The position numbers and the translations under genes are program-made. 64,000 bases of DNA, from contig NZ_CP118261.1 in assembly GCF_013337045.2 (NCBI RefSeq), positions 248,001 through 312,000 of the forward strand, given 5' to 3'. Numbering within the stretch: the first letter of the stretch is position 1; each line of letters starts with the position of its first letter. Positions 16,186 to 45,136 of the stretch are shown in pieces. Below the pieces are notes generated by a model. That model was not told the DNA's origin. It saw only the letters and a program-made list of their open reading frames with translations, and made no database searches. Source of the stretch: Agrobacterium vitis. Its GTDB lineage: Bacteria > Pseudomonadota > Alphaproteobacteria > Rhizobiales > Rhizobiaceae.

Positions 16186-16196
16186 TGGATCCTCCC

Positions 16197-20440: not shown

Positions 20441-22880
20441 GTGCGATCCCCCTTTGCTGGAGCCAGTGGAGAGGCCAGGAGGCCCCCTGTTCGGAATGCA
20501 GGGTGCGAATTTGCTTCAGGTCTTCCTTACCCGTCGCTCCGACGAAGGAGAGTGCGACCGGACCGAGCGCCATGTTAAAAAGACGGCGACCCTCTGGTGA
20601 GACAACGTAATATTCGCGCTTGGGAATAGCGGTTGCGACGATTTCGATCTGCCGCTCGTTAAAACCGATGCGCTCATAGAACTCGCGGGTGCCCGGTTCA
20701 CGCGCCGCTCCGTTCGGTAGGCAGATCTTTGTCGGGCAGCTCTCCTTCAAGACATCGATGATCCCGGATCGCTCGGCATCCGAAATCGACTGGGTGGCAA
20801 GTACGACGGCGCAATTGGCCTTTCGCAACACCTTCAGCCATTCCCGAATCTTGTCGCGAAACACTGGATGACCGAGCATCAGCCAGGCTTCGTCGAGGAT
20901 GATCAGGCTAGGAGAGCCGGTCAGGCGGTTCTCGATGCGCCGAAACAGGTAGGTGAGAACGGGGACGAGATTGCGCTCGCCCATGTTCATCAGCTCCTCG
21001 ATCTCGAAGCATTGGAAAGCGCCAAGCGCCAGACCGTCCTCTTCGGCATCGAGCAACTGGCCCATCGGGCCGTCAACGGTGTAGTGATGGAGCGCGTCCT
21101 TGATCTCACGCATCTGCACGCCTGAGACAAAATCTGAGAGCGAGCGGCCACGCGAATCCGCCATCAGTGCGATCTGCCGGGAGATGGCGTTGCGATAATC
21201 CGGGGTGATCGTCACACCCTGTAGCGCCACCAGCATCTCGATCCATTCGGCGGCCCAGGCACGGTCACCGTCGCTGGACAGTTCGGCGAGCGGGCAGAAG
21301 GCGAGCGCTTTCACCTCACCATTTACCGACGGACCGATATCGCCGCCGATCTGATAGTGATCGCCGTCGACGCCCAACGCTAGGGGAAGCATTGAGCCGC
21401 CCTTGTCGAAGGCGAATAGCTGGGCATCGGCATAACGCCGGAACTGCGCGGCGATCAGCGCCAGCAGCGTTGATTTGCCGGAGCCAGTCGGACCGAAGAT
21501 CAGCGTATGGCCGACATCATCGACGTGCAGGTTCAGCCGGAATGGCGTCGAACCGGACGCAACCTGCATCAGGGGTGGCGAGGCAGGCGAATAGAACGGG
21601 CAAGGCGCGGTCGGACTTCCGGACCAGACGGAGTTCAAGGGGATAAGATCGGCGAGATTGCGGGTGTTGACCAGCGGCTCGCGGATATTGGCGTAAGTGA
21701 CGCCGGGCAGGCTGCCGAGAAAAGCATCCGTGGCGTTTAAGGTTTCGATCCGGGCGCCAAACCCTTCGGCCTGGATCAAGCGGCGGATCGCCTCGCACTT
21801 TTCCTGGAGGCGAGTTTGGTCTTCTTCAAAGATGACGATGACCGGTGTGTAGTAGCCATAGGCGACGAGCTGCGAGGACGCTTCGGCGATGGCGTCCTCG
21901 GTTTCTGCCACCATCAGCATGGCGTCCTGATCGACCGAGCGGCTTTGTGTCTGGAAGAGCTGGTCGAAGAACGGTCGCACCTTCTGCTGCCACTTCTTGC
22001 GGGTGCGCTCAAGCCGCGCCCTCGCTTCCTCCGCGTCGAGAAAGATGAAGCGAGACGACCAGCGATAGGTCAGCGGCATCAGGTCCAGCGTGTTGAGGAT
22101 TCCAGGCCAGCTTTCGGCCGGTAGGCCGTCGATCGCCACCACGCCGAGAAAGCGGTTTTCCACGAGCGGTGTCAGGCCATGCTGCAGCTCGGCCGTCACC
22201 AGCCAATCGAGATACATCGGGATATCAGGCAGGCGCACCGGATGGTTCTCGCCAGTGATGCAGAAACGGATGAACTGGAAGAGTTCGTCGTATCGGGCGA
22301 TACGGAACCCACCGCGCTCTGAAATCTCTCGCGTCATCATCCGACGGATCGACAGGACATTGGCAAGATATTGCTCGACTTCACGGATCGAGGTCAGGAA
22401 GCTTTGCAACATCGTGTCGGCATAGGTCGCAGAACGGCTCGCCGCATCCGAATAGACATACCGTGTCAGGCCGGAACGCCGGGGCTCCGGCGGCCGCCAC
22501 GTCAGGATCAAAGCATGGCGGCTCTCGAAATGCCCCCTCTCCTTCTGGAAATGCGCCCGCCGCTCGTCGTCGATGGCGCGCGTGACAGGATCGGGAAAAT
22601 GAGACTCTGCATCGCTTGGATAGTCTCCAGTCGGGACGCGCACGGCCTCGACCTGGATCATCCATCCCGAGCCGAGCCGCGATAGGATGGCGTTGATCTG
22701 TCGTGATACCTCGTTGCGTTCAGCGTCGGTCGAGCTCTCGCTATCCGGCCCCGCAAAATACCAGCCGGCCATCAGCGAACCGTCCTTCAGCAGAATGACA
22801 CCGTTATCGACAAGGCCGGCATAGGGCACGAGATCGGCGAAGGACGGCCCGGAATGACGGAAGGATTTGAGGGCAACCAT
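20412..22880 (-). CDS. trbE: Conjugal transfer ATPase TrbE (VirB4-like)
   Basis: The 822-residue protein has the VirB4/CagE N-terminal domain and a RecA-like ATPase domain with Walker A (FGPTGSGKST) and Walker B (SLIILDEAWLML), plus the VATQSISD motif. It powers pilus assembly and substrate translocation from the cytoplasmic face of the channel. The length is normal and the frame is intact. Confidence 0.96.
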   Translation of the reverse strand: MVALKSFRHSGPSFADLVPYAGLVDNGVILLKDGSLMAGWYFAGPDSESSTDAERNEVSRQINAILSRLGSGWMIQVEAVRVPTGDYPSDAESHFPDPVTRAIDDERRAHFQKERGHFESRHALILTWRPPEPRRSGLTRYVYSDAASRSATYADTMLQSFLTSIREVEQYLANVLSIRRMMTREISERGGFRIARYDELFQFIRFCITGENHPVRLPDIPMYLDWLVTAELQHGLTPLVENRFLGVVAIDGLPAESWPGILNTLDLMPLTYRWSSRFIFLDAEEARARLERTRKKWQQKVRPFFDQLFQTQSRSVDQDAMLMVAETEDAIAEASSQLVAYGYYTPVIVIFEEDQTRLQEKCEAIRRLIQAEGFGARIETLNATDAFLGSLPGVTYANIREPLVNTRNLADLIPLNSVWSGSPTAPCPFYSPASPPLMQVASGSTPFRLNLHVDDVGHTLIFGPTGSGKSTLLALIAAQFRRYADAQLFAFDKGGSMLPLALGVDGDHYQIGGDIGPSVNGEVKALAFCPLAELSSDGDRAWAAEWIEMLVALQGVTITPDYRNAISRQIALMADSRGRSLSDFVSGVQMREIKDALHHYTVDGPMGQLLDAEEDGLALGAFQCFEIEELMNMGERNLVPVLTYLFRRIENRLTGSPSLIILDEAWLMLGHPVFRDKIREWLKVLRKANCAVVLATQSISDAERSGIIDVLKESCPTKICLPNGAAREPGTREFYERIGFNERQIEIVATAIPKREYYVVSPEGRRLFNMALGPVALSFVGATGKEDLKQIRTLHSEQGASWPLHWLQQRGIAHVETLFPTS

Positions 22881-22890
22881 TGCAAAGACC

Positions 22891-23190
22891 TCAGTATGCT
22901 CGCCAAGGCGACGACGTCGCGCGGTAAAAGGTCTTGTAGGAAATATGCCGGAGGTAGATCCTGCGCATCAGTGGATCGGCTTTGGCCATCATGCGGAGTG
23001 CCGCGACAGCCACCAGCCAAATCGCGATGCCGAACAGAGCCGCGTACCAGGTCAGCACGACGAAGATCAGTATGACCGCCGCAAGCGCCGTCAGCAGAAC
23101 CAGTTCGCGATCGGCCCCCATCAGGAGATTCGGTCGCGACAGCGCCCGGTGTACCCGCGAGCGTGCGAGAGAGGAACCAGCCTCAGCCAT
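22891..23190 (-). CDS. trbD: Conjugal transfer protein TrbD (VirB3-like)
   Basis: The 99-residue inner-membrane protein starts by overlapping the trbC stop. It contains [18 protein letters not shown] before two membrane segments ([19 protein letters not shown] and [15 protein letters not shown]), the standard VirB3/TrbD layout. It works with TrbE in pilus biogenesis. Confidence 0.94.
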
Positions 23191-23587
23191 GGGCCCCCTC
23201 CCCCACAGTGGCCGCCGTCATCGAGGGCTCGGTCATGCTGCGCCCAGCCTGCGAATGAGCCTCGCCGATCGAGGCACCGGTCGCGCCGAAGAGAGCGACA
23301 ATCTGGGTAGCTCCGAGAAGTACCCCCCCAACCAGCGCGACGTAGCAAAGCCGCCTCGCGAAATCATTCAATTCGCCGCCGAAGATCAGCATCGCACCGG
23401 CAATGGCGACCGCCGCCAACGCGATAAAACCGGCGACGGGTCCAGTGATCGATTGCTGGATTTGCTCCAGCGGCGATTCCCACGGCAGACTACCGCCGCC
23501 CGAAGAGGCGAGTGCGAAGTCAGCATAGCCGACAGAAACGGCGGCAAGCGCTGCGCCAACGAGAAGAATGGAGATTTTACGCGACAT
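23183..23587 (-). CDS. trbC: Conjugal transfer pilin TrbC (VirB2-like)
   Basis: The 134-residue propilin starts at ATG 23587, eleven bases inside the end of trbB. A signal peptide ending near FALASSGGG precedes two membrane helices ([19 protein letters not shown] and [21 protein letters not shown]), as in cyclic T-type pilins. After processing it would form the conjugative pilus. Confidence 0.94.
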
Positions 23588-24548
23588 GGCTGTCCTCATC
23601 GATCTGGGCATAATACTCGGTCTGGTAGCGGCCGTTGCGGTATCCCTCGATGTGGATGACCTCGCGGACCCGCCTCCCCTTTCCCGTTCGCTCAATTGAG
23701 ACGACGAGATCGACGGCTTCACCGATCACCTCCTGCATCGGCTGTTGGCTGGCTTCCGCCGTCAGTTGCTCCAGTCGGCGCAGGGCTGACATCGCCGTGT
23801 TGGAATGGATTGTCGTGACGCCGCCCGGATGTCCCGTGTTCCAGGCCTTGAGCAGCGTCAGGGCTGCACCATCGCGGACCTCACCGACAATAATGCGGTC
23901 GGGACGAAGGCGCATCGTGCTCTTGAGCAGGCGCGCCATGTCGATTGTATCGCTCGTGTGCAACGAGACTGCATTCTCTGCCGTGCATTGAATCTCTGCG
24001 GTGTCTTCGAGAATGACCATCCGATCGTCCGGGGCAGCGGCTACGACCTCGGCGATAATGGCATTGGCGAGAGTTGTCTTTCCCGATCCCGTGCCCCCTG
24101 AAATGACGATGTTCATCCGTGCATCGATCGCGCTGCGAATGGCTGACGCCTGCGCCTCGGTCATCACCTTCAACTTCACGTAGTCCGTCAGTGGGATGAG
24201 ACGCGAAGCGCGCCTGCGGATGGTGAATGCTGGACTTGATACGATCGGAGGCAACAGGCCCTCGAAGCGGTGTCCGCCGATTGGCAGTTCGCCGGAGATG
24301 ATTGGTCGCTCATTGTCGGCCTCCGACTGGAGCGCGTGGGCGACGCTGCCGATGACGACTTCGGCCGCGGTAGAGCTCATCGCGCCGGCAGCTGTAACGC
24401 CGTGCCCCAGCCGTTCGATGAATAGCCGGCCATCGGGATTGAGCATGATTTCGACCACTGTCGCGTCATCAAGCGCAACGCAGAGTTGGTCGCCTAGGGT
24501 GTCCTGCAGTTTGCGAACCAACCGTGGATGGGAGCGAAGTTGGGTCAC
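23577..24548 (-). CDS. trbB: Conjugal transfer ATPase TrbB (VirB11-like)
   Basis: The 323-residue ATPase begins at GTG 24548, whose bases overlap the traI stop (GTGA) and follow GGAGC. The longer open frame upstream is inside traI and unlikely. Walker A is [12 protein letters not shown] at about residues 149-160, with an Asp box ([12 protein letters not shown]) and Walker B ([14 protein letters not shown]). It is a hexameric traffic ATPase of the VirB11/PulE family. Confidence 0.96.
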
Positions 24549-25183
24549 GCAGCGCTCCTGATCTGAAGGCCGCGATATTCGGCGATGATCGAGCGGTAGT
24601 CTGACGGGCATACTCGGTGGAAACTTGCTTGATCGGCTGGCAACGTTCCTGCAACAGCGACAGTGTTGCCGACTGCCACGGGATCGCCAAGCCGCTTCAT
24701 TGGCCATCCGGCTCGGTTCAAGATGCGCTCAAAACGGAGGTCGGTTGCCGTGACGATCTCGTCATAGCCGTTTTCCATCGACCATTCGATGATGCCTGAA
24801 AACATGGTAAGCGTCGCGGAATGAAGTTGGCCCCCTCCCCTGCCGGCGGGCAGAGTCGTATCGACGCAGAAGCGCGAGCTCTCGACCATATTTGCGGATG
24901 CGTTGAGGGAACCGGTTGCCAGCAGTTGCGGGAATGTGAGTTCCAGCATGGTCGGGCCTATTGCCGGAAGCAGCCGAGCGCAGCCGACGACCCTCTCATC
25001 ACTGGTGATCGCGAGTATGTAAGTCGGGCCGAAATCGTCGTACTCGTCCCGTTCTCCTGCCTCAGTAGTCGTGACGTCCCATTCGAGACGATCGCGGAAG
25101 ACTGCGGCACGCAAGCAGTGCATCTGTTTCAGGAGATTCGAATGATTGACGTATCGATCAGGTGAAACGGTTAGAATCTGCAT
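24545..25183 (-). CDS. traI: Acyl-homoserine-lactone synthase TraI
   Basis: The 212-residue LuxI-family enzyme makes the quorum signal that activates TraR and so the conjugation genes. All family-invariant residues are visible: Arg25, Phe29, Trp35, Asp46, Asp49 and Arg70 in RAAVFRDRLEW, RDEYDD and VVGCARLL. As in Ti-type plasmids it heads the trb operon. The ribosome site is GGAG in GCGGAGATAGAG. A tra box lies about 60 bases upstream. No traR or traM is in the window. Confidence 0.95.
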   Translation of the reverse strand: MQILTVSPDRYVNHSNLLKQMHCLRAAVFRDRLEWDVTTTEAGERDEYDDFGPTYILAITSDERVVGCARLLPAIGPTMLELTFPQLLATGSLNASANMVESSRFCVDTTLPAGRGGGQLHSATLTMFSGIIEWSMENGYDEIVTATDLRFERILNRAGWPMKRLGDPVAVGNTVAVAGTLPADQASFHRVCPSDYRSIIAEYRGLQIRSAA

Positions 25184-29558: not shown

Positions 29559-30473
29559 ATGAATTTCACATCTGGCAGTTTGCCCGTCGCAACGCGTGAC
29601 GTTTCTCAAGCGAAAGCAGACCTTGATCAGTTCGGCTATGCGATCCTGGCCGATTTGGTGACGGGTTCTGGACTGGAGGCTCTTCGCCAGCGACTGGTCG
29701 AACAGGCGGATGCGGAATGCGCCGCCGGAGTAGCGCTTTTGCATGATGCGGATGACAAGCCACTATCGCAGGAGGTGGCACGAACAATCGATCGACACCT
29801 AGTGCCCAGGCAGATCCTGATGATGCTTTACAACAAGGGGAAGGTGTTTCGCGAAATCGCTCATAACCCCAGCCTTGTCACGTGCGTGCGGCACATGTTT
29901 GGGGGGCGGGAATTCAACCTCTCAGGGCTTGCGGCCCAGATTACCAACCATGGCAGGCCAGCCCAGAAATTGCACACCGATCAGGACCAGTTGCCGCTTG
30001 ATCCGTCGAAGGCTTACGTTGCCAACATCTTGGTGATGGTCAGCGATTTCACAGAAGCTAACGGTGCCACGCGGGTGATTCCGGGCTCGCACCTTTGGCC
30101 GCGTCCGCCTTGGTCGCGCAGCCCCAATACCGCCCCGGATTACCCCTTCCGCACCATGGACATTCCAGCCCCGCCGATGGATACAATAGCGGTAGAGGGT
30201 CAGCCAGGCAGCGCCCTTATTCTCGACGGTCGCGTATGGCACGGCGCGGGAGCGCATACCGCACCAGGGGTTACCCGATATGCTTTGGCGTCATCCTATG
30301 TACTGCCCTTTATCAGGCAATACGAGAATTTTCCGGCTAATATTCTGCCCGAAATATTCGAGGCCTTGTCCAGCGATGAGCGACATCTCCTAGGGTATGC
30401 GGGATATAAGGGATCTCTGGGCTATGTCGAGCCAAAGGCTTCCCGGATCGGTGAGAGCGCATCAGCCGGCTAA
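29559..30473 (+). CDS. Phytanoyl-CoA dioxygenase-family Fe(II)/2-oxoglutarate enzyme
   Basis: The 304-residue protein starts at ATG 29559 behind GAGAGGTG. It has the PhyH pattern: HxD in QKLHTDQDQLP (about residue 139), GATRVIPGSHLWPR, and the distal His in VWHGAGAHT followed by the cosubstrate Arg in TRYALASS. Such enzymes hydroxylate or halogenate small molecules. Its end is 58 bases from the end of the convergent sulfotransferase gene, so it adjoins the P450/sulfotransferase peptide cluster and may add a further oxidation there, or may be unrelated. Confidence 0.85.
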   Translation: MNFTSGSLPVATRDVSQAKADLDQFGYAILADLVTGSGLEALRQRLVEQADAECAAGVALLHDADDKPLSQEVARTIDRHLVPRQILMMLYNKGKVFREIAHNPSLVTCVRHMFGGREFNLSGLAAQITNHGRPAQKLHTDQDQLPLDPSKAYVANILVMVSDFTEANGATRVIPGSHLWPRPPWSRSPNTAPDYPFRTMDIPAPPMDTIAVEGQPGSALILDGRVWHGAGAHTAPGVTRYALASSYVLPFIRQYENFPANILPEIFEALSSDERHLLGYAGYKGSLGYVEPKASRIGESASAG

Positions 30474-30531: not shown

Positions 30532-31455
30532 TTAGCTCGTTTTGCCTAGGCCCGCATATCCGGACATCATCCATTTGGCGCAATCGACGCCAAGTTCTGC
30601 CATGGCATGCTGTTCAAACCTTGCGCTAGCCTCCGTCGTCAGCGTATCGATCCATCGCCCGTTTTGCCCCTTATTGAAGAACAACTTGCCATCGTCTTTC
30701 CACAGGCCTGCTCCATGAGGAACATAGCGACGGGCATTGTTCCTCATATGTCCGAGGCTACAGTTGTGCAAAATGCGCGGTAGCCGATCAAGCGACAATG
30801 GGACCTCTAAAAAGGCAGCGATCCTAAGGATTTGTTCGCCCATATCCGTGATGAGGTCGGCATAGTGCACAAACAGGACATTCGGGAGAATCCGCGCCAA
30901 CCACCAGGATCGTAGATTTTCCCAGAACGGCCAGAACGGAAAACCATCTTTATCGAGCCAGGCATCGAAAAAATCGGTGATTGACGACTGCGGCGGTGTC
31001 GCCACCCGCAGCCGCCCAGAACGCCCCGCTTCCTTGTCTAGCAGCAGTTGCGCATCTTGGCGGGCCGCATTTTGGTGATCGAAAAGGCTCCAGACGATAT
31101 CTCGGCCATCTCGCCCGACGTAGATATATTTCGCCTTCTCCGAAAGGATCAGCGCATCCATGGGCAAATGTGTTTTTAGAAACCGCCGATGGGTTTGCGC
31201 CTCGATCAGGCCCAGTTTAACCTGTTTGTCGGGATAAACTGAATCAATCCAAGGCGAAATAGTTGCCACGTCCACATCGTTATCCTGATCAAAAATGAGT
31301 TGCGCAATAATCTGTTGAACCAGTGTCGTTCCTGCTTTGGCATAGCTTGCGACAACGATATCTCCATCACGATATTTTATGTCGTTCCAGATGCTGGCAT
31401 CAAAATAGCGGTTGGCAAAATCCCGCTTCTTCAAAGGGTGATCGTTCGCATCCAT
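30532..31455 (-). CDS. Sulfotransferase domain protein (PAPS-dependent)
   Basis: The 307-residue protein starts at ATG 31455 behind GGAGG; an in-frame GTG at 31473 is possible. It has the cytosolic sulfotransferase signature: 5'-phosphosulfate loop ASYAKAGTTLVQQII (about residues 36-50), catalytic-His region FLKTHLPMD, and the 3'-phosphate site YIYVGRDGRDIVWSLFDH. The enzyme moves sulfate from PAPS to a hydroxyl group, often a phenol. It is the last gene of the peptide-P450-methyltransferase cluster, so a tyrosine phenol of the peptide is a reasonable but unproven acceptor. Confidence 0.85.
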   Translation of the reverse strand: MDANDHPLKKRDFANRYFDASIWNDIKYRDGDIVVASYAKAGTTLVQQIIAQLIFDQDNDVDVATISPWIDSVYPDKQVKLGLIEAQTHRRFLKTHLPMDALILSEKAKYIYVGRDGRDIVWSLFDHQNAARQDAQLLLDKEAGRSGRLRVATPPQSSITDFFDAWLDKDGFPFWPFWENLRSWWLARILPNVLFVHYADLITDMGEQILRIAAFLEVPLSLDRLPRILHNCSLGHMRNNARRYVPHGAGLWKDDGKLFFNKGQNGRWIDTLTTEASARFEQHAMAELGVDCAKWMMSGYAGLGKTS

Positions 31456-31476
31456 GACGTCCTCCGAAACCACGTC

Positions 31477-32172
31477 TTAACGAAATGTCGTTTGATGTAA
31501 GCCGTCCAGGTAATCGCGCGTATTGTCTTCAAGCTCTTCTGGCTTTTGTTCAGGCATCGACCGCCTCTGGAACAGGTTCCAGCGGGATTTCTTAGGCCGC
31601 GCATGGAGCCAAGGATAAGCCACCTCAGGGCATGCAACGCCCAGAAACGCGCAAAGCGGATCCCATCCCTCACCTGCGTCCAACACGAGCAAGCGATCGG
31701 CGGGAACTTCATCGATAACGGACTGATTCCACCGACGGAAATAGTTGGTCATGAACGTCCGGTCGCTTATATTGTCGCCGAAATCCCTGCGCAAAAAGTC
31801 GCTGAGGGCAAGGCCATCGTTGCCCAATAACATCCCTTTCCGTTTGGCTGGAAAGATTGTTTCACTGACGGATTCGAACCAGCCATCCGGGTCTCGCCTG
31901 GTCAGAATGACTTTCGCCTGCGGATAATGCTCCATCAATTCGCGCCAGAACAGGCAACTTGGGTAATCGACAGTTGCACGATATCCTTCGAAGATACGGT
32001 CCCAATCGGCCGTTCCACCGATAGCGTCGTTCCAAAGTGGCAGGGAGGTCCGAACCGTCGCGGCGATTTCCATGGCGTGATAGCAGGGCGCTATCCCCAA
32101 ATGCTCTAGAGCGAGCTTGAGGGATAAAGTCCCTGTTCGACCTAATCCGGCACCAATAACACAAAGGCTCAT
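31477..32172 (-). CDS. Sulfotransferase-family P-loop protein
   Basis: The 231-residue protein starts behind GAGGGAA. It has an N-terminal PAPS-binding loop, GAGLGRTGTLSLKLALEHLG (about 7-26), the strand KVILTRRDPDGWFESV and a C-terminal Lys/Arg-rich tail, as in the sulfotransferase group that opens with GxGRTGTxSL. It is distinct from the neighbouring classical sulfotransferase. Two sulfotransferases in one short operon suggest two sulfated positions, or one catalytic and one divergent partner. Confidence 0.8.
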   Translation of the reverse strand: MSLCVIGAGLGRTGTLSLKLALEHLGIAPCYHAMEIAATVRTSLPLWNDAIGGTADWDRIFEGYRATVDYPSCLFWRELMEHYPQAKVILTRRDPDGWFESVSETIFPAKRKGMLLGNDGLALSDFLRRDFGDNISDRTFMTNYFRRWNQSVIDEVPADRLLVLDAGEGWDPLCAFLGVACPEVAYPWLHARPKKSRWNLFQRRSMPEQKPEELEDNTRDYLDGLHQTTFR

Positions 32173-32212
32173 AACATTTCCCTCATTCTATCAATGGTGC
32201 CATCTATGCCAG

Positions 32213-32962
32213 TCAGAATCTGCGGTATTCTGAAATCGCTGTTCGGCTGGCGGAAACGAACGACTCGCGCTGCCAATTGCTCCACCGAGCATGAAGAAAG
32301 AGGCCGGCAGACCGCGCGAGCAAGTCCAGTTCATTCGGCCAGACGCATCGGATCTTGTGTCGGAAGACCTTGGGATGTGTACCGATGACCATGATGCGCT
32401 GCTCAAGCACTTGAGAGATCGGATCGCCCTTCACCCCCATGAGCATGACGGACGCCATCCCGTCCTCGTCCGATGGCAGGTCCCCCATGCGGTTGAGCCG
32501 GAAGTCGCTGCTGAAAATCGCTTCGTTTGGAATGATCGTTTGGACAACCAGCGAACCGCCCTCTGCGAGATGTTTTTCTGCATTGGCGAAGAAGCGCAGC
32601 TGCTCCTCTTGGGTGAGGAGATAGTCGAACGACGCCACACAATAAATGAGGCCGAATTCTCCCTCTATGGGCACATCCGCCATATCGCCTAGAACCAGGG
32701 ACAGTTTTTCTGCTCCCGGCTTTCGCTTTAGCCGTTCGAGCATCGCTTCGGAAAGGTCAATGCCGGAGACGTCAAGGCCGCGCTGAGACAGTGGCAAGGC
32801 GATCCGTCCTGTCCCAACGCCAAGTTCAAGCGCAGGGCGGCCATCGGCGATGTCCGCGAGAACATTTACGCAGGGAGTCATGACACTTTCGGGCCAGGAT
32901 TCCTGCCAGCTATCGTAAAACTCTGCATAGCTGTCATAGTTGTTAAACGAGCTTGCCGTCAT
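32213..32962 (-). CDS. Class I SAM-dependent methyltransferase
   Basis: The 249-residue protein has SAM motif I ALELGVGTGRIALPL (about 44-58), motif II LSGIDLSEAMLERL-like sequence and LVLGDMADVPI. Its start overlaps the P450 stop (ATGA), so the two are translationally coupled. In cittilin biosynthesis a methyltransferase encoded next to the P450 O-methylates a tyrosine; the same role is inferred here. The motifs do not distinguish O- from N-methylation. Confidence 0.85.
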   Translation of the reverse strand: MTASSFNNYDSYAEFYDSWQESWPESVMTPCVNVLADIADGRPALELGVGTGRIALPLSQRGLDVSGIDLSEAMLERLKRKPGAEKLSLVLGDMADVPIEGEFGLIYCVASFDYLLTQEEQLRFFANAEKHLAEGGSLVVQTIIPNEAIFSSDFRLNRMGDLPSDEDGMASVMLMGVKGDPISQVLEQRIMVIGTHPKVFRHKIRCVWPNELDLLARSAGLFLHARWSNWQRESFVSASRTAISEYRRF

Positions 32963-34365
32963 ATGAAGGTCCTATCTAGTCCGGCTTCCGAGGCACGGGG
33001 CGTTAAAGTCAGTGTGACACCCAAAGGGCGCAAGACGAGTGCTGGATAGGGTCGCACTTTGGTATGTGGCATCCGTTTCAAGGTGAAGCGCCTCAAAATA
33101 CAGACCAATATGGCTGTCATATGGATCATGCTGAAATGCTCGCCGATGCAGCGCCGGCTGCCCCCGCCAAAGGGGAAAAAGGCGTAGCGCGGTAAGCGTT
33201 CTTCCAGCGTGCCGTCCAGCCAACGGTCCGGCCGATAGTGCTCGGGCAAGTCGAAATAGCGGGCACTGCGGTGATTGACCCAGGGACTGATCATCAAGGC
33301 GCTACCCTTTGGGAGAAGGAAGTCGCCGAGCACCGTATCCTCAAAGACAGTCCGCCCGGTTAGCCAGGCCGGTGGGAACAGTCGCAGGGCCTCCTTGAGC
33401 GCAGCCCTTGTCTCGCGCAATCCGTTCTCGTTCAATCCGTCAAGGCTGATCGGGCCGTCGCCGTTCGTAGCCCAATCACTGCCCGTCAATGCCAACGCAT
33501 CTATTTCTGCGGTCACACGTCGCAGAACGTCCGGGTGCGCTGTCAACAGGTGCAAGGTCCAGGCAAGTCCGGCAGACATCGGCTCCAGCCCGGAGAGGAT
33601 CATGGTGCAAAACTCGTCGCGCAGCCAGTTGTCATCCTCATCAGACGCCTTATCGAAGGATCGTTCGAACCCATCGTGCCATGCGACGCTCTTGTCGCTG
33701 CCTTGGCGCGGCTGCCGCGCACGGGCAAGGGCAGCGCCAGCCAGTTCCTTCGCAGCATCTCGGGCGCAGGCAAGTCGTGCCTCCGTCCTGTCGAATGGGC
33801 CGAGTGGAAAGCGTATACCGTCGCGCGTCTTCGCTATGATCAAATCTGATAGGATCACGAACGCGGACTGCTCATTCTCGCCAAGCGTGGTTTTGAGAAA
33901 AAATTGACAGCCGATGTCAAAACACAGCCGCTGCAGGGATTTTCTGATGTCGGAATATGGAGGCTCGATCTGCCATCGATCAAGATGGCCCTGGGTAATT
34001 TCGATTGTTGCATCCACGCCCTTTGCAACGGCGTCGCGACTAAAGCCGGGTTGCAACATCTTTCGCTTGCGGCGCCAGTCTTCACCAGAGCTATTCATGA
34101 TCGAAGAAGCAAAATTGACCATGCCCCTATCTTCATCAGGAAGCGACTTTTGAAATACCTGATGCTTGTCATGAAGAACCAATTCAATCAGTTCAGGGGC
34201 AACGACAACATAGAAGCCGTCATCGATGCCGATCAAAGGACTGTCAATTTGACAGCACGAAGACAGCAATGACAGAGGATCCTTGCGGAATCTGAAGCTG
34301 TTGTTGAAAAGGCATCGCTGCCGAATATTTGGAATTTTTTGTTGATAATTCTCAACTGAGGCCAT
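32959..34365 (-). CDS. Cytochrome P450, putative peptide cross-linking enzyme
   Basis: The 468-residue P450 is taken from ATG 34365; a TTG at 34377 is also open, and neither has a strong ribosome site. The heme loop FPFGGGSRRCIGEHF has its Cys at about 406, ExxR is EALR at about 325-328, and the PERF-type region is YRPDRWLDG. The I-helix reads SGLEPMSAG: the Thr normally following the acidic residue is Pro, an alteration seen in P450s that do not perform ordinary hydroxylation. It follows a 25-codon Tyr-rich peptide gene, as P450s do in cittilin and biarylitide clusters, where they join aromatic side chains. Confidence 0.88.
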   Translation of the reverse strand: MASVENYQQKIPNIRQRCLFNNSFRFRKDPLSLLSSCCQIDSPLIGIDDGFYVVVAPELIELVLHDKHQVFQKSLPDEDRGMVNFASSIMNSSGEDWRRKRKMLQPGFSRDAVAKGVDATIEITQGHLDRWQIEPPYSDIRKSLQRLCFDIGCQFFLKTTLGENEQSAFVILSDLIIAKTRDGIRFPLGPFDRTEARLACARDAAKELAGAALARARQPRQGSDKSVAWHDGFERSFDKASDEDDNWLRDEFCTMILSGLEPMSAGLAWTLHLLTAHPDVLRRVTAEIDALALTGSDWATNGDGPISLDGLNENGLRETRAALKEALRLFPPAWLTGRTVFEDTVLGDFLLPKGSALMISPWVNHRSARYFDLPEHYRPDRWLDGTLEERLPRYAFFPFGGGSRRCIGEHFSMIHMTAILVCILRRFTLKRMPHTKVRPYPALVLRPLGVTLTLTPRASEAGLDRTFI

Positions 34366-34434
34366 CGGAAATAGCAACCGCCAAAACTGGAAAGCCTATA
34401 TTCACCAATATTAATTCAAACAAAGAATCGGCGT

Positions 34435-34464
34435 CCTCGGGAATTCAAAATTAAACCCCCGAGG
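34435..34464 (-). terminator. Hairpin between peptide gene and P450
   Basis: A 7-bp stem (CCTCGGG and CCCGAGG) with a 16-base AT-rich loop lies 13 bases after the peptide stop. It could reduce read-through into the P450 gene, a usual arrangement in RiPP operons. No T run of note follows. Confidence 0.4.
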
Positions 34465-34476
34465 AGCAACAGGTTA

Positions 34477-34554
34477 TCAGTATGTATAGATATAACGTGG
34501 CTTACGACGATTAAGCTTAGATGCGCCAATAAAGACGGCAAGAAATTTCTTCAT
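34477..34554 (-). CDS. Putative cittilin-like RiPP precursor peptide (25 residues, tail YIYTY)
   Basis: ATG 34554 is preceded by AAAGGAG six bases away, an excellent ribosome site. The frame begins MKKFLAVFIGASKL, continues with a basic stretch (NRRKPR) and ends YIYTY before TGA. A short Lys/hydrophobic leader, a basic junction and a C-terminal core with alternating Tyr is the layout of cittilin precursors, whose core is YIYY. The genes that follow are a P450, a methyltransferase and two sulfotransferases. Its own promoter lies at 34603-34631. It is too short for routine gene callers. The assignment rests on layout, not on database similarity. Confidence 0.75.
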   Translation of the reverse strand: MKKFLAVFIGASKLNRRKPRYIYTY

Positions 34555-34602
34555 ATCTTACTCCTTTATTATTCGTCGACGCTAACAGGGCGCCGGAAAA
34601 TA

Positions 34603-34631
34603 AAAATATCTTATATTACAAAAGAAGTCAA
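34603..34631 (-). promoter_or_regulatory. Putative sigma-70 promoter of the peptide cluster
   Basis: Read leftward: TTGACT (34631-34626), a 17-base spacer and TATTTT (34608-34603). It would give a leader of roughly 40 bases before the peptide ATG. The surrounding 200 bases are strongly AT-rich. Confidence 0.55.
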
Positions 34632-35055: not shown

Positions 35056-35736
35056 TCAAGTCTGGAACCGGGAATCCAGCCACACAGCAAATCCGCCCTT
35101 GAATGCATTGGCGTTATCGCCGTGACGGGCATTGGTCGGCAGTGTTTTCAACCTGGTGACATTGCCGCCGCCGATGACAACATAGTCCGGCTCCAGTGCC
35201 GCGCTGAGTTGCTCTACAGCCCTCAACACATGTTTCTCCCATTTACTATGCCCGCGTTCTTCCAGGCTGGCCTGACCGAGGTAGTCCTCATAGCTGCGGC
35301 CTTTGCGATAGGGAAGATGCGCTAGTTCCATGGGTTGGGTGACATAGTTGACGATCATGGCCGCTCCCAGCCCGGTGCCAAGGCCGAGAAACAGCATACG
35401 TCCGCCTTCATAGCTTCCCATAGCCTGCATCAGGGCATCGTTGACAATACGTACGGGCTTGCCGAACCGCTTTGCAAAATCGAAGCCTGTCCATCCAGCA
35501 GCTAAGTTATGCGGCTCCGCCAAAATACGATTATGAACAACCGGACCAGGATAACCAATGGCGATAACGTCATAATCCATGCCTGACGCAAGTGTCTCGA
35601 CTGCGTCGGCCATTGCGACAGCATCCATTTCAGGACCCGAGACAGCCTTTCTTTCCACGCCGTCAGCGCTGTTCATGATTTTCACATGCGACCCGCCGAC
35701 ATCGACGGCAAGCACGATCTGTGGCTTTTCATCCAT
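35056..35736 (-). CDS. ROK-family glucokinase, polyphosphate-glucokinase-like
   Basis: The 226-residue kinase starts behind AAAGGAAG. It has the phosphate-binding start VLAVDVGGSHVKIMNS, the loop LFLGLGTGLGAAMIV and GDNANAFKGGF near the end. It would phosphorylate glucose, perhaps with polyphosphate, feeding the dehydrogenase encoded just upstream. The last eight to ten residues (VWLDSRFQT) look unlike the usual GGFRMW ending, and an IS6-type fragment begins about 30 bases beyond, so the 3' end may have been rewritten by that element. Confidence 0.78.
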   Translation of the reverse strand: MDEKPQIVLAVDVGGSHVKIMNSADGVERKAVSGPEMDAVAMADAVETLASGMDYDVIAIGYPGPVVHNRILAEPHNLAAGWTGFDFAKRFGKPVRIVNDALMQAMGSYEGGRMLFLGLGTGLGAAMIVNYVTQPMELAHLPYRKGRSYEDYLGQASLEERGHSKWEKHVLRAVEQLSAALEPDYVVIGGGNVTRLKTLPTNARHGDNANAFKGGFAVWLDSRFQT

Positions 35737-35748
35737 AGATGTCTTCCT

Positions 35749-37125
35749 TTATGGTTGCGGATTGACCCAGCCACCGGGAGGAGCGAAATCCTTAAAGGCA
35801 TCGGCAGGCCCCCAGGTACCGGGCAGATAGACGGCTGGCTGTTCCTTAAGATCAAGCACAGGATCCACCACGCGCCAGGCCAGCTCAGCCGCGTCCTGCC
35901 GAGTGAAGAGCTGGCGCCTGCCGTTCAGGGCATCGCCGATCAACCGCTCGTAGGGCATCATGTCGTCGGTCGTATCATCAAGCGCACCGAGTTCAACGCT
36001 TTCACCGACCATCCCCTCGCCCGGCGCCTTGCGTCGGGTACCAATGCCGATTGCCACCTGCGGTCCAACACGGAACCGCAGATAATTGGCTTCGGCTGCG
36101 GTAACTTCGTCGAAAAGAGCAACGGGCGGGCGGCGAAACCGCACGACAACTTCTGTCGCACGGACCGGCAGGTGCTTGCCGGCTCTGATAAAAAAGGGCA
36201 CATCCTTCCATCGCCACGTATCCACGAACAGGCGCACAGCGGCAAATGTCTCGACAGGTGAGCCGGGCGCAACACCCGGTTCGTCGTGATAGCCTTGGAA
36301 CTGTCCCCTTACGAGGTCATGCGTCGAGAGCGGACGAATGGCTCGGAGAACCTGGACCTTTTCGTCACTAAGTTCATCAGAACCGTTGTTGACAGGTGGT
36401 TCAATCGTCAGCAGCAGGAGGATATTGATCAGGTGGTTCTGGATGACGTCACGAATGCATCCAACCTCGTCATAGAATTTGCCGCGGCCAGCAATTCCGA
36501 AATCCTCAGCCATGGTGATTTGCACGCTTTCCACGTGGGTCCGGTTCCAGACTGGTTCCAGAAAAGCGTTGGCGAAACGGAAATAGATCAGGTTCTGCAC
36601 CGCTTCCTTGCCCAGGAAATGGTCGATGCGGAACACTGCGTCCTCCTCGAACGCGGAATGCAGGACACCATCCAATGCCTGAGCAGAGGCTAGATCCCGT
36701 CCGAAGGGCTTTTCCACCATCAACCGGGCGTTCTCAGCAAGGCCAGCCGCCTTCGATGCCTTGATGACTGTCTCGAAAAGCGAAGGCGGGATGGCCAGAT
36801 AGTAAAGCGGATGGGTGGCAGGACCAAGCGCCTCACGCAGCCGATCGAAGGTGGCCGGACTTTTGTAGTCGCCACTGACGTAGCGCAGCAATCCCTTCAG
36901 CCTGGCAAAAACCGCCTCGTCAACCGTGCCGAACTGTTTGCTGATGCCATCGTGAGCGCGTGCCGCCAGGCGGTCGATATCCCAGTCATCGAGTGCCACC
37001 CCGATGACTGGCTCGCTCAACTGGCCTCGCCTCACCATCTGGTAAAGTGACGGGAGTATCATCTTATAGGCGAGATCACCGGTCACGCCGAACACGACGA
37101 GGGCGTCGGATCTGCCTTGTATCAT
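35749..37125 (-). CDS. zwf: Glucose-6-phosphate 1-dehydrogenase
   Basis: The 458-residue enzyme oxidises glucose-6-phosphate to 6-phosphogluconolactone. It has the nucleotide loop [19 protein letters not shown] (Val-Thr where most have Ala-Ser) and the catalytic [14 protein letters not shown]. Its ATG 37125 overlaps the stop of the 6-phosphogluconate dehydrogenase gene (ATGA). It is a second, operon-linked copy of a type usually also present on the rhizobial chromosome. No lactonase gene is in this operon. Confidence 0.95.
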
Positions 37126-38135
37126 GACTTGCTCTCCGGCTTCTCCACATGACCGCCAAAGGCGTGCCGCATGGCGGAAAGCAGCTTGTTGGCAAATTCA
37201 TCGTTGTCACGTGACGTGAAGCGTCCGAACAAGGCAGAAGACAGGACCGGAGCAGGCACTCCGGTTTCGACCGCCGCCTGCAATGTCCAACGGCCTTCGC
37301 CGGAATCCGACACGCGACCACCATACTGTGACAATTGCGGATCCTGCTTCAACGCGGATGCTGTGAGATCAAGCAACCAGGAGCCAATGACACTGCCATG
37401 GCGCCAGACTTCCGTCACAGCCACCAGATCAAGGTCAAAACGATAATATTGCGGATCCCGCAATGGCGCGGTTTCGGCATCGGCGTCACGCGCCTCGCTG
37501 CCTGCATCAGCAGCCTTCAGGATGTTCAGCCCTTCGGCATAGGCGGCCATGATGCCATATTCTATGCCATTATGGACCATCTTGACGAAGTGACCGGCAC
37601 CCGGCGGACCGCAGTGCAGATAGCCTTCCGTTCCTGTATCGGCGGTGCCGCCCGTGGCCCCCGTGCCGTCTTTTCCAGGGGCAAGGGCCGCAAAGATAGG
37701 GTCAAGATGCTGCGCCGCTTTCTTCTCACCGCCGATCATCAGGCTATAGCCACGATCGATCCCCCAGACCCCGCCACTGGTCCCGACGTCAACGAAGGAG
37801 ATACCTTGAGAACCAAGCTCAGTTCCGAGATCGACCGCGTCGCGGTAATAGGAGTTTCCGCCATCGATCAGAATATCACCGCTCGTCATTTCGCCAGCCA
37901 AGTCGCGGGCTATCTTTCCCGTGATCGCGGCTGGCAGCATCAGCCAGACAGCACGGGGCGTGGCCAATTTGGCGAGAAAATCGGCGTAGCTCGCCGCGCC
38001 GACAGCACCTTCGGCCACAAGAGAAGCAACGTTTTGCGGATTGACGTCATAGACGACACATTGATGCCCCGCCTTTATCAACCGCCGCACCATGTTCGCG
38101 CCCATACGACCGAGGCCGACCATTCCCAATTGCAT
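37122..38135 (-). CDS. gnd: 6-Phosphogluconate dehydrogenase (decarboxylating), short form
   Basis: The 337-residue enzyme is taken from ATG 38135 behind GGAG; a TTG at 38150 is also open. It has [19 protein letters not shown], the substrate region [12 protein letters not shown] and [19 protein letters not shown]. The length marks the short, YqeC/GndA-type form, often NAD-linked. It decarboxylates 6-phosphogluconate to ribulose-5-phosphate, the step after Zwf. Confidence 0.94.
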
Positions 38136-38153
38136 GTCTATCTCCGTCAAACG

Positions 38154-40559
38154 TTAAGCTATGATTTGAACTTTGAAATTGGCATTTTCCCAGAGGTCCG
38201 CCTCCTCCCAGAAGAAGGTGAACACCAGCTCCTGGCCGATCACGCCGTCCGCCAGGTCGATATCGACAACATGGGTCCCGAGACCGGTTTCGCGTGTTCT
38301 GGTGTCCGCCACCTCGTGCCAGCCCGTGGCGCTCCAGTGCACCAGGGCTGGCGCTTCCAGTTCAAGCCGCAATGTCTTGCCGTGGGGTATGGTGGAAATC
38401 TGATTGTTGAAGCGCCAGATGCGCAATGTTGATGGCGTCTGATGTTTTACATAGCGCTCAACTGTTTGCGGCGGCATGTCAAAAACGGCACCATCGTTCA
38501 GCGAGCGCAACAGCTTGATGTATTCCGCATGCGCCCAGACCAGTGGCATGGCGCTGCCTGACGGGCGGCCCAGGAACAACTCGCGTTCGGTGAGATCTGG
38601 TCCGTCCCAGCTCTGCTCGGGCAGAAGTCCCTCCGTCCCCGCCGAAGCCTCAAGCGTCTCCAGAAGCCGTTCGGCCATATCGCGATTTCCAGCCGCCAGC
38701 TCGTAATGTGCGCGCTCACCCGCCAGCAATGGCCACGGACGCCCCTGCCCGATGCCATCAAATGGGCTGCCATCAGGATGTTCGCCATAACCGTCACCCG
38801 TATAGCGATACCAGAGCGGACCTTGCGGCAGATCAATCTTCAACTGATGGTCGATGACCTTTATCGTGTCGAGGATCCTCGGATCGTCAGCGGCCCGCAA
38901 CCCAAACCGAACAAGCGCCAGGGCGTCGGGGCTGATAACGTCACGGGTCGGCAATAGCGACGTGTCGGCTGCCCGGTTGCGGATAATGGTCTGCCCTTGA
39001 GTGCCCGTCGCTACGTCAGTGACATCGAGCCCCCCAATACGGACATAATATCCTTTCACGCCGACGACATCGCAAAGGGTGGAATTGCTGGTATAAGTCC
39101 AGTTTTCAATCTGCTCATTCCAGCAGTCTGCGGTTTCGCGCAAATGCCGGGCCACATCCGGCTCACCGACAACGTCCAGACTGTCTGCGGCGGCCAGCAA
39201 TGCGGCAATCTCGACGGCCAGGGTGAACGGGCTATAGCCGCCATCTTCTTCCCAGCGGTCCTGGTTGGTGGCCGGCCCATTAGCGATGATGTAGCCAGCC
39301 GCCTTGCGGATCATCGGGAGGAATCGGGTCAGCAGCGTGTCCGGCAGATGACCATTTCGATACAGGAGATCGGCCAGCAGAATAGGAAAAGCGCATTCAT
39401 CCATCTGCACCCCGAGCCAATAGGGCTTTCCATCCAGCCAGAGATTCTGCGGCCAACGACCGGACGCCAACTGAACCTCGCGTAGATATTCCAGGATTTC
39501 GATTGCTTCCTTCCAGTCACCAGCAGCGAGAAAGCCGCCCGCGCTTTCCACGAGATCGCGAGGCCAGACAAGGTGATAACCACCCAGATCATCATCCCCT
39601 TTGCTCGCCCCCCAAGGAATGGACAGGCTGGCAACCACGGCTCCTCGCCGGTCAGCCGCGCGATGGGCGGCAAGCACGGCGGTCGAGACGCGGTACATAT
39701 TGATGGGCTTTGCGGTCTCGCGATCCAGATCGTAGAGACTTTTCTGCCAGCCGCGCCAATTCGCACAATACATGCCGAACGCGGCATCGAATCCATCCCG
39801 CAGACTGGCGAGTGCCTGGGCGCCTGCTTCCGTTTCCGACTGGCCGAAGCTGAGGGCCAGAATTGCGGTGTCAGCACTTTCCGTGAACTGGATTTGCCCC
39901 GTCAGCGCCGTATTGCCATCGTCGGCACGCTGATATTGGTGATGGAGACGGCCGTTTTGCAGTAATTGGCTATAGCCATCAGACTGTCCGGCAAAGCCGG
40001 CAGATCGCTCGCCCCATGGAAGTGATGATCCAAGCGCAAGATAGCGTGATCGGCCGCTTGCAAAGAGAAGTGCAGTATCGTCTTGCTCACCAATCCAGGC
40101 GGAATTATCCATCCCCGCGTTGACAAGATGAGGCGCAAGCAGCGCATAGACCTTGTAATCGGAAATGTTACCGACCAAAGGCCTGAACGTGATGCGCTGA
40201 AGAACTGTTGCGCGAGCGGGATCGGAAATGATCTGCTTTTCGATCCGGTAGCGGCCATCTCGTGAAATGTTGACGACATCAAACGCCAGTACGCCGCTTT
40301 CCACTTGATGGGTCGTTGTAATGCAATCGCGCTTTTCCTCGGAAAAATATCCTTCAGGACCAGTAACAAGTAGCCCAAGATCTCGAATACAGGCGCTGTC
40401 TACCCTGGGGTAATAGACTTCATTCAGCACCCCATGGCTCACTGTGAACCATACGGGAGACCGCGCCGAAAGCGCGGTGCCAATTCCGCTCTTGGCGCTC
40501 GAAGTCCAACGCGCCTGAATTCCTGGATTGCCGGGGGCAAAATCGACGAGGGTAGTCAA
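38154..40559 (-). CDS. Glucoamylase, glycoside hydrolase family 15
   Basis: The 801-residue protein begins with TTG 40559 behind AAGGGG. An N-terminal beta-sandwich (GIGTALSARSPVWFTVSHG, YYPRVDSACIRDLGLLV) precedes the (alpha/alpha)6 barrel with GH15 signatures YHLVWPRDLVESAGGFLAAG and GLLPEQSWDG, which hold the catalytic Glu residues. There is no signal peptide, so it should act in the cytoplasm on glycogen, maltodextrin or trehalose-like glucans. It heads the operon glucoamylase-gnd-zwf-kinase. Confidence 0.92.
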   Translation of the reverse strand: MTTLVDFAPGNPGIQARWTSSAKSGIGTALSARSPVWFTVSHGVLNEVYYPRVDSACIRDLGLLVTGPEGYFSEEKRDCITTTHQVESGVLAFDVVNISRDGRYRIEKQIISDPARATVLQRITFRPLVGNISDYKVYALLAPHLVNAGMDNSAWIGEQDDTALLFASGRSRYLALGSSLPWGERSAGFAGQSDGYSQLLQNGRLHHQYQRADDGNTALTGQIQFTESADTAILALSFGQSETEAGAQALASLRDGFDAAFGMYCANWRGWQKSLYDLDRETAKPINMYRVSTAVLAAHRAADRRGAVVASLSIPWGASKGDDDLGGYHLVWPRDLVESAGGFLAAGDWKEAIEILEYLREVQLASGRWPQNLWLDGKPYWLGVQMDECAFPILLADLLYRNGHLPDTLLTRFLPMIRKAAGYIIANGPATNQDRWEEDGGYSPFTLAVEIAALLAAADSLDVVGEPDVARHLRETADCWNEQIENWTYTSNSTLCDVVGVKGYYVRIGGLDVTDVATGTQGQTIIRNRAADTSLLPTRDVISPDALALVRFGLRAADDPRILDTIKVIDHQLKIDLPQGPLWYRYTGDGYGEHPDGSPFDGIGQGRPWPLLAGERAHYELAAGNRDMAERLLETLEASAGTEGLLPEQSWDGPDLTERELFLGRPSGSAMPLVWAHAEYIKLLRSLNDGAVFDMPPQTVERYVKHQTPSTLRIWRFNNQISTIPHGKTLRLELEAPALVHWSATGWHEVADTRTRETGLGTHVVDIDLADGVIGQELVFTFFWEEADLWENANFKVQIIA

Positions 40560-43047: not shown

Positions 43048-44091
43048 ATGGAGAAAAGCAGGACCGTTCGGGCTGCCGCCGCACAGATCGCGCCGGATCT
43101 CACCTCCCGCGACAAAACGCTTGCCCGCGTGCTGGAAACAATCCGCGAGGCGGCTGGCAAAGGCGCGGAGCTCATCGTTTTTCCAGAAACCTTCGTTCCC
43201 TGGTATCCCTATTTTTCCTTCGTCCTGCCACCCGTTCTGTCTGGTCGCGAACATCTCCGGCTTTACGACGAGGCTGTCACTATTCCGAGTAACACGACCG
43301 AGGCCGTGGCGGCAGCGGCGCGCGAGCACGGCATCGTTGTCGCACTCGGCGTCAACGAACGGGATCATGGCACGCTTTACAATACGCAACTGGTTTTTGA
43401 CGCGGATGGAGAGTTGGTGCTCAACCGGCGCAAGATCACGCCGACCTTCCATGAGCGGATGATCTGGGGCCAGGGCGACGCCTCCGGCCTTAGGGTGGTC
43501 GATAGCAAAATCGGCCGCATCGGCGCGCTGGCCTGCTGGGAGCACTACAATCCCCTCGCCCGTTATGCGCTGATGGCCCAGCATGAGGAAATCCACGTCG
43601 CGCAATTCCCCGGCTCCATGGTCGGGCCGATCTTTGCCGACCAGATGGAAGTGACAATCCGCCATCATGCGCTGGAAAGCGGTTGTTTCGTCGTCAACGC
43701 CACCGGCTGGCTGACCGACGAGCAGATCCGCACGATCACCCCTGAGGAAGGCCTGCAAAAGGCACTGCGCGGCGGCTGCATGACGGCGATCATTTCGCCG
43801 GAAGGCAAGCACCTGGCGCCCCCGATTACCGAGGGCGAAGGCATCCTCATTGCCGACCTGGACATCAGCCTGATCCTGAAACGCAAGCGAATGATGGATT
43901 CCGTTGGCCACTATGCGCGACCGGAACTTCTGCATCTCGTCATCGATGACCGCCCGGCAAATCCGATGGTTGCAGCCCATCCTTTCCTCGAAACCGCACC
44001 GACAGGGAGCAATACCGATGGATACCAGACCCCAGCTTTCGACGGAAACGCTGATCAACGAATTGCAGTCGTTCGGCGCGAGGCTCGTTGA
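43048..44091 (+). CDS. Nit1-type nitrilase
   Basis: The 347-residue carbon-nitrogen hydrolase has the catalytic triad Glu47 ([11 protein letters not shown]), Lys129 ([11 protein letters not shown]) and Cys163 ([10 protein letters not shown]). It hydrolyses a nitrile to acid and ammonia without a metal or cofactor. Nitrilases of this Nit1 clade occur in conserved clusters, which in some bacteria have been linked to cyanide or nitrile use. The next gene begins 74 bases before its end. Confidence 0.94.
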
Positions 44092-45136
44092 TCCGAAGGC
44101 CGGCCACGAAAGCCGCCGTGGTGGTGCAGGCCCTTCCGATCACAAGGCCCTGACCATCGATGGCATGACGGTGATGGTGCCGGTACACACGGCACCCGCA
44201 TTCGAGAGTCCTTACCTCGTCGAAAAACCGGATGACGCCGGTAACAGCCGCATCAGTCGCGACGGCCATATCATCGGGGAAGTCTCCTTCCCCTTGCGTC
44301 CACGCTTTTACGAGCGCTCGACGGCGGACGGCATTCCCTATTCGCAGATTGCCGTGCTTCACGGTCGCGACGTGCTGGCAACAACCGTTCTACAGACCTG
44401 TATCCGCTACCAGAGCCGGACGAAAACCTGTCAGTTCTGCGCCATCGGCCAGTCGCTGGCGGCTGGCCGCACTGTTGCCCACAAGACGCCGGAACAGCTT
44501 GCTGAAGTCGCCAAGGCCGCCGTGGAACTGGACGGCGTCAAGCATATGGTCATGACAACAGGCACACCGAAAGGCGACGACCGGGGAGCCGCAGTGCTTG
44601 CCGAAAGCGCCCGCGCCATCAAGGCTGCCGTCAACATTCCCATTCAAGCACAATGCGAGCCACCGGAAGATGACATCTGGTTTTCCCGGATGAAAGACGC
44701 TGGCGTGGATACGCTCGGCATGCATCTCGAAGTCGTCACGCCGGAAATCCGCGCCCGCATCATGCCGGGCAAGGCGCAGGTCGGCATCGAAAAATACATG
44801 GCCTCTTTCAAGGCTGCGGTCGAAGTGTTCGGGCGCGGTCAGGTCTCCACCTATATCCTCGCCGGGCTTGGAGACACACGCGAGGCCATCCTCGAAATCT
44901 GCGAAAGACTGGTGGCGATAGGCGTCTATCCCTTCGTCGTGCCCTTCGTGCCGATCTCGGGAACGCCGCTGGAAAGCCATCCCGCGCCGAAGCCGGACTT
45001 CATGCATTCGATCCTCGGCCCGCTCTCAAAAATGCTCGTAGAGAGTGGCCTGAAGGCCGTCGATATCAAGGCTGGCTGCGGAAAATGCGGCGCCTGTTCT
45101 GCCCTTTCCACCTATGAGAGGATGCTGACGCGATGA
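44018..45136 (+). CDS. MSMEG_0568-family radical SAM protein
   Basis: The 372-residue protein starts at ATG 44018 behind GGGAG, overlapping the nitrilase gene by 74 bases. The cluster motif is [18 protein letters not shown]: Cys128, Cys138 and Cys141, an unusual spacing (C-x9-C-x2-C) typical of this family. A second group, CGKCGAC (Cys354, 357, 360), near the C-terminus could bind an auxiliary iron-sulfur cluster. The reaction is unknown; it may build or modify the nitrile or its precursor. Confidence 0.9.

Follow-up and report, generated by a model that had tools for sequence, protein, structure and literature searches.

What is made from a peptide gene of 25 codons that lies ahead of a cytochrome P450, a methyltransferase and two sulfotransferases? 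The question is raised by a cassette in a 64,000-nucleotide stretch of the Agrobacterium vitis genome (contig NZ_CP118261.1, positions 248,001 to 312,000 of the forward strand), which we call the window and whose features are collected in Table 1. The best reading, which we place just on the better side of even, is that the cassette makes a sulfated, P450-modified member of the ribosomally synthesised and post-translationally modified peptides (RiPPs) that imitates the plant hormone phytosulfokine (PSK); the precursor, the enzymes, their conservation and their co-occurrence are read from sequence, and from these we infer the chemistry and the target. Among the open-licence papers listed by the literature searches, none reports the cassette and none a YIYTY peptide.

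A short gene with a nearly constant core

The frame encodes the peptide MKKFLAVFIGASKLNRRKPRYIYTY, which ends in YIYTY. The initial annotation had described this frame, its ribosome-binding site AAAGGAG and its tail correctly, and the P450 at 32959–34365, the ATGA-coupled methyltransferase and the two sulfotransferases that it placed downstream agree with our reading. Of the 1777 start-to-stop frames of 15–40 codons in the window, with each nested start taken as a frame of its own, no other ends in [YF]xYxY, and a degenerate DNA pattern for YIYTY followed by TGA occurs once across the 6.08 Mb genome. In the five close loci (the window, L032, L035, L036 and L037) a single column of the 78 in the frame is variable, and the change is synonymous; the variable columns around it number 36/180 upstream, 15/114 in the gap after the frame and 51/400 in the opening stretch of the P450 gene. 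None of the frame-breaking differences in related strains that, according to the initial annotation, would have spoken against the gene was found in the twelve loci read. On the strength of these alignments, and of homologous frames in every distant cluster read, we regard the short frame as a real gene; the PLSDB gene table (incomplete) shows no gene at this position in four plasmid records.

Related loci were collected by similarity of the P450, with the window supplying the queries and the core not being used as one. The twelve loci compared are the window, L032, L033, L034, L035, L036, L037, L038, L067, L068, L090 and L091, of which L032 nearly duplicates L038; the plasmid of L036 recurs as L092, which was left out of the count. 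Three relatives came from a scan of species genomes and five plasmid records, at 89–96%, from a plasmid scan, one of the latter being the L032 plasmid. The carriers are A. vitis-type plasmids, two paralogues in Rhizorhapis, and three genomes assigned to Trinickia, Robbsia and Xanthomonas sacchari. Of these genomes, G1226 is taken as T. caryophylli, G1182 as R. andropogonis (P450 99% identical to P0027) and G1823 as X. sacchari (99.8% to P0066), and the frames at the expected place read MKNMISVVSKLVRILGGHKLGYIYTY, MKSMIGGITKLVRMFGWQKLGYIYTY and MKRLFDSLSRWVQSLGGNRLGYIYTY, respectively; a [YF]IYTY frame likewise precedes the P450 in both clusters of Rhizorhapis suberifaciens (L033, L034). The precursor frame, the P450, the methyltransferase and the sulfotransferase ST4 are present in 12/12 loci and the sulfotransferase ST1 in 11/12, so that none of these twelve loci lacks the upstream short frame, a lack which the initial annotation had named as grounds for doubt.

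The core is YIYTY in eleven of the twelve loci and FIYTY in one (L034), at the end of precursors of 25–26 amino acids (aa). Over the six lineages the mean pairwise identity is 93% for the core and 26% for the leader, and 4/5 core columns are invariant versus 1/20 in the leader (Fisher p 0.0019, rows not weighted for kinship); a basic residue lies at most three residues from the core in all six precursors. A short precursor beside tailoring enzymes, with a constant core and a variable leader, is thus what was found, and conservation of the tail but not of the leader fits the expectation for a RiPP core, as the initial annotation had anticipated. From this comparison of sequences the cassette is nearly certainly a RiPP pathway, and a core nearly constant among such distant bacteria is its unusual feature. 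The leaders of L067 (9468–9548) and L090 (12092–12172) have an LGG shortly ahead of the core, which is a possible double-glycine cleavage site, and those of the other four lineages do not: no GG precedes the core in the window, L033 or L034, and L068 has one near the N-terminus only.

The ribosome-binding site of the distant loci is GGAG in L033, L034, L067 and L090 and GAGG in L068. The promoter first proposed for the gene does exist as a string, but similar sites are nearly as frequent in shuffles (Table 1); its TTGACT hexamer is common to all six aligned A. vitis-type loci, whereas besides the window only L035 has TATTTT, the other four having TATTGC. The stem-loop between the precursor and P450 genes is possibly a partial terminator or a stabiliser of the 3' end, and hairpins of unlike sequence lie past the precursor stop in six lineages (the window, L033, L034, L067, L068 and L090), those of the first three compared with shuffle controls and the others folded without them.

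Table 1. Features in and next to the cassette, with positions counted from the first letter of the window
Feature	Position	Strand	Description
Precursor peptide gene	34477..34554	-	25 aa, leader MKKFLAVFIGASKLNRRKPR + core YIYTY
Precursor ribosome-binding site AAAGGAG	34561..34567	-	kept in A. vitis-type loci
Promoter-like TTGACT-N17-TATTTT (weak)	34603..34631	-	2 sites found vs 1.7 in shuffles
Stem-loop in the precursor–P450 gap	34431..34467	-	-25.3 kcal/mol, z -4.8, 0/200 shuffles as stable
Cytochrome P450	32959..34365	-	468 aa, PF00067
S-adenosylmethionine-dependent methyltransferase	32213..32962	-	Methyltransf_25; ATGA overlap with P450
Sulfotransferase ST4	31477..32172	-	PF17784; in 12/12 loci
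Sulfotransferase ST1	30532..31473	-	PF00685, cytosolic SULT type; absent only from FIYTY locus L034
Phytanoyl-CoA dioxygenase-like (PhyH)	29559..30473	+	PF05721; convergent to cassette

The proposed product and its likeness to phytosulfokine

Four of the five residues of PSK (Y1, I2, Y3 and T4) are the same in the bacterial core, and the cassette contains sulfotransferase genes; it differs from the plant system in its bacterial precursor of 25–26 aa, its P450, its methyltransferase and its other families of sulfotransferase. The A. vitis-type plasmid records give Vitis vinifera as their source, and the remaining carriers are presumably plant pathogens or plant isolates. In the available portions of two sources, the PSKs of plants comprise YIYTQ, YIYTH (perhaps a pseudogene), YIYTN, YVYTQ and YVYTN, with a variable fifth residue, the peptide is sulfated on Tyr1 and Tyr3, and the disulfated tetrapeptide YIYT has 8% activity left (PMC11534595, PMC10796568). 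The one mismatch of the bacterial core is at the residue with the greatest variation among plant PSKs. PSK signalling is described as attenuating immunity to (hemi)biotrophic bacteria (PMC10796568). Given the match at four of five positions, the two sulfotransferases and the plant-associated hosts, we assign PSK mimicry a probability of about one half. This match, the same core in Burkholderiaceae- and Xanthomonas-type genomes, and the correlation between FIYTY and the absence of ST1 are what the initial annotation missed.

We propose that the 25-aa precursor would be translated and that the P450, which is likely the tyrosine cross-linking enzyme, would oxidise the C-terminal YIYTY, most likely by joining the rings of Tyr3 and Tyr5; this link is the simplest guess, since both tyrosines are kept in every core read. 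The methyltransferase would add a methyl group to the peptide, ST1 may sulfate Tyr1 and ST4 Tyr3 or Tyr5, and a protease encoded elsewhere would cut ahead of the core, the residue before the cut being Arg in the window and Gly in the precursors of Burkholderiaceae and Xanthomonas type. With one ring link, one methyl and two sulfates, YIYTY has a predicted [M-H]- of 892.2387; the [M+H]+ of the linear, unmodified peptide is 722.3396. This assignment of the sulfotransferases is consistent with the FIYTY locus, the single cluster without ST1, where Phe in place of Tyr1 coincides with the absence of that enzyme. Released at the plant, the product would imitate disulfated PSK (YIYTQ); an i,i+2 ring link would keep the peptide extended and shield it from proteases, and on PSK receptors it would promote cell growth and damp antibacterial immunity. 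It can be hypothesised, at roughly even odds, that plant-associated bacteria of three or more groups (Alphaproteobacteria, Burkholderiaceae and Xanthomonas) use a dedicated, exchanged cassette to make a ready-made, disulfated, methylated imitation of PSK with a ring lock set by the P450.

Several observations weigh against this mimicry. The core does not have the form Y[IV]YT[QNH], its fifth residue being Tyr and not Gln, Asn or His, and a P450 and a methyltransferase are needless for true PSK. The cittilin core, YIYY, also holds YIY, so part of the PSK match may reflect a preference of the P450; among the matches listed, relatives of this enzyme occur in myxobacteria and Streptomyces, and the Robbsia P450 is nearer by identity to myxobacterial P450s than to that of the window (36–38%). 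RaxST and TPST are members of Sulfotransfer_3 (cut-off 27 bits), for which the scores are 26.2 for ST1 of the window and 33.5 for L033, the best families being PF00685 and PF17784. The link between FIYTY and ST1 is one event, and the L034 genome has ST1 on another contig, from which it could act in trans. The cassette genes read include no transporter and no protease. The cassette is also rare, the only strong matches among 297 genomes of the family and 398 drawn from the phylum being in the window's own genome: 296/297 family genomes were without a strong P450 match, with 42 others matching at 26–43% identity only, and 397/398 of the phylum draw were without a match at E 1e-70. Furthermore, the Asp found ahead of PSK in its plant precursors (PMC10796568) has no counterpart before the bacterial core.

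Two bacterial cases can be compared. RaxX of Xanthomonas, the precedent for a sulfated RiPP that mimics a plant hormone, is likewise a ribosomal peptide encoded with a sulfotransferase, and it imitates the sulfated plant hormone PSY; it has a 60-aa precursor, a GG leader, the peptidase-transporter RaxB and one sulfotransferase, RaxST, and the available part of the source names no P450 or methyltransferase (PMC8872720). Neither ST1 nor ST4 is of the TPST/RaxST type. In the available portion of a review, a single bacterial sequence, YIYTQ from 'Proteobacteria sp.', is called PSK-like and given a signal domain and a PSK domain, and no biosynthetic cluster is described (PMC8618561).

Related peptide families and other explanations

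The initial annotation had called the cassette a cittilin-like RiPP, and the outline of an unannotated precursor, a P450 and a methyltransferase holds, but the core is YIYTY or FIYTY and not the YIYY of cittilins, which carry a biaryl and an aryl-oxy-aryl link. Cittilins, from Myxococcus, are likewise made from a short precursor (27 aa) with a C-terminal aromatic core by a P450 (CitB) and a methyltransferase, and no sulfo- word stands in the main text of the source (PMC8708641). Myxobacterial P450s (among the best 120 of 893 hits, CitB not being identified among them) are 47–49% identical to that of Robbsia, so kinship with the cittilin enzymes is possible. A tree of 40 P450 rows has a fully supported split between 14 rows (myxobacteria, Streptomyces, Longimicrobium and others) and the other 26, among which are all rows whose YIYTY or FIYTY core is verified, X. 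sacchari being represented by P0066; the tree is midpoint-rooted with the alphaproteobacterial rows first, and under that root the 26 rows are not a clade.

Biarylitides are likewise aromatic peptides linked by a P450, theirs being tripeptides, and some of their clusters have sulfotransferases (17/277, five in one clade and twelve others, in the part of PMC13417212 available). Membership in this family was rejected on the five-residue precursor of biarylitides versus 25–26 aa here. Aminopyruvatides (ApyA/ApyO) are likewise ribosomal peptides in which a P450 joins the two tyrosines of Y-x-Y, an activity that depends on an upstream Arg or Lys; they differ in a 66-aa precursor ending in YLYD and in the chemistry of a multinuclear non-haem iron-dependent oxidase (MNIO), and a sulfotransferase is unmentioned in the portion available (PMC13192836). 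Membership was rejected here too, the P450 scoring 134 bits on the ApyO model of NCBIfam (cut-off 525); its score on the terpene-type monooxygenase model, 142 bits (cut-off 700), is also far under. The methyltransferase scores 73 bits on the daptide methyltransferase model (cut-off 175).

The strongest alternative, to which we assign a probability somewhat short of even, is a sulfated P450 RiPP of the cittilin or aminopyruvatide kind whose target is something other than the PSK receptor, for example a protease or a different target in plants or microbes; the constancy of the core would then come from the demands of four enzymes and an unrelated target. It would leave unexplained that Ile2 and Thr4 are kept together with the tyrosines, that there are two sulfotransferases and that the verified carriers are plant-associated (their hosts being partly our assumption). 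The cassette genes read include no MNIO gene. The enzyme scores, all under the cut-offs, are consistent with it, as are the sulfotransferases of biarylitide clusters (PMC13417212) and the sub-nanomolar inhibition of proteases reported, in the part of the source available, for a peptide with a biaryl link and a C-terminal aminopyruvate (PMC13192836).

A further reading, an ordinary cittilin cassette that has reached plant bacteria and in which sulfation is decorative, is improbable. The precursor length (PMC8708641), the P450 and the methyltransferase are alike, and the myxobacterial P450s listed share 47–49% identity with that of Robbsia, but two sulfotransferases in 11/12 loci and one in the twelfth are not accounted for, and the supported split of the P450 tree (midpoint root, CitB not identified) parts the myxobacterial enzymes from the rows with verified cores. 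YIYTY resembles YIYY, with an additional Thr between the last tyrosines. A chance frame beside enzymes that make a non-ribosomal product has a very small probability. Short frames are plentiful in the window (1777 of 15–40 codons, nested starts counted), but the same core type recurs in 12/12 loci despite P450 identity down to 36–38%, with a single synonymous change in the close loci, and this reading is rejected.

Organisation, distribution and meaning of the cassette

The gene order is P450–methyltransferase–ST4–ST1 in the window, P450–ST1–methyltransferase–ST4 in L067 and L068, and P450–ST1–ST4 with a divergent methyltransferase in L090. The identity of the window P450 to the distant cassette P450s bottoms at 36–38%, and between alphaproteobacterial and Burkholderiaceae-type loci it is 36–44% for the P450, 51–55% for the methyltransferase, 58–64% for ST4 and 55–60% for ST1. 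The motif for binding 3'-phosphoadenosine-5'-phosphosulfate (PAPS) and the His and GxxGxW motifs of ST1, which we take to be of functional meaning, are intact in all six rows read. In the Robbsia cluster L068 an adenosine-5'-phosphosulfate (APS) kinase (PF01583; 5165–5821) lies 3' of ST4, where it would help PAPS supply, and a leucine-rich repeat protein (1190–2644) lies a few kb off. The PhyH-type dioxygenase, a candidate accessory enzyme, is found within the stretches read in 8/12 loci, convergent in the seven A. vitis-type ones and on the opposite side of the cassette, past a transposase-like frame, in L033. The L034 cassette (5782–10800) is paralogous to L033 in R. suberifaciens and is the FIYTY copy without ST1 and PhyH. 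Insertion sequence (IS) genes border the cassette or lie near it in L032 (from translation), L036, L037 and L038; together with the transposase-like L033 frame, recognised by eye, they suggest that Rhizobiaceae and Sphingomonadaceae have exchanged the cassette as a whole.

Within the window's genus the P450 is present in 4/63 genomes, two of them taken as A. vitis CG78 and A. ampelinum S4, and absent from 59/63. The A. vitis strain VAR03-1, which is non-pathogenic, also carries the cassette. A P450 profile search (26 hits) found related P450s in Rhizobium lemnae, Trinickia caryophylli and Paracidovorax valerianellae, and relatives occur among the best 120 of 893 hits in Robbsia andropogonis, Brenneria sp., many Xanthomonas and several myxobacteria. 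Matches were found in 23/398 genomes of a family taken as Burkholderiaceae (f66), two of them strong, and in 1/10 genomes of a high-GC family (f46). No match was found in 395/397 genomes of the Rhizorhapis family (of the two that did match, one did so through the distant locus L043), in 294/294 genomes of a family that is perhaps Comamonadaceae (f71; E 1e-85), or among viral contigs. A frame ending in YxYxY was absent from L043, from the 1.5 kb before the match in all 29 distant-P450 control loci (L003–L031; part of this being P450 where the match is partial), and from L049, L050 and L061, the three read of 18 Burkholderiaceae-type loci at E 1e-74 to 1e-79 (L049–L066).

Genes for a ROK kinase, zwf, gnd and a glucoamylase adjoin the cassette in the window (35056–40559), and the same block is present in plasmid pRvVAR031a; the other three plasmid records read show none of it closer than 12 kb to the cassette. 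Frames like VirB10, VirB6/TrbL, VirB4 and VirB11, recognised by eye at 14863–24707, suggest that the window may be part of a conjugative plasmid. At 43048–47818 there are frames of nitrilase, radical SAM, AIR synthase-like and glycosyltransferase type, also recognised by eye, which resemble the MSMEG_0568/Sll078x-type genes annotated in L035.

If the proposed mimicry holds, evolution has given bacteria a chemically modified version of a plant hormone of growth and immunity by means of a P450 and two sulfotransferases other than RaxST and TPST. Xanthomonas would then have a second hormone-mimic sulfopeptide beside RaxX, and the A. vitis group a growth signal outside its transferred DNA (T-DNA). 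The cassette would be a candidate route by which Agrobacterium of grapevine, Xanthomonas and some Burkholderiaceae could act on the growth and immunity of plants. It would also supply new ligands for PSK receptors, and its variants would form a natural set for assigning sulfotransferases to tyrosines. Even with a different target, it represents a type of RiPP with a nearly invariant five-residue core that has been left out of gene tables.

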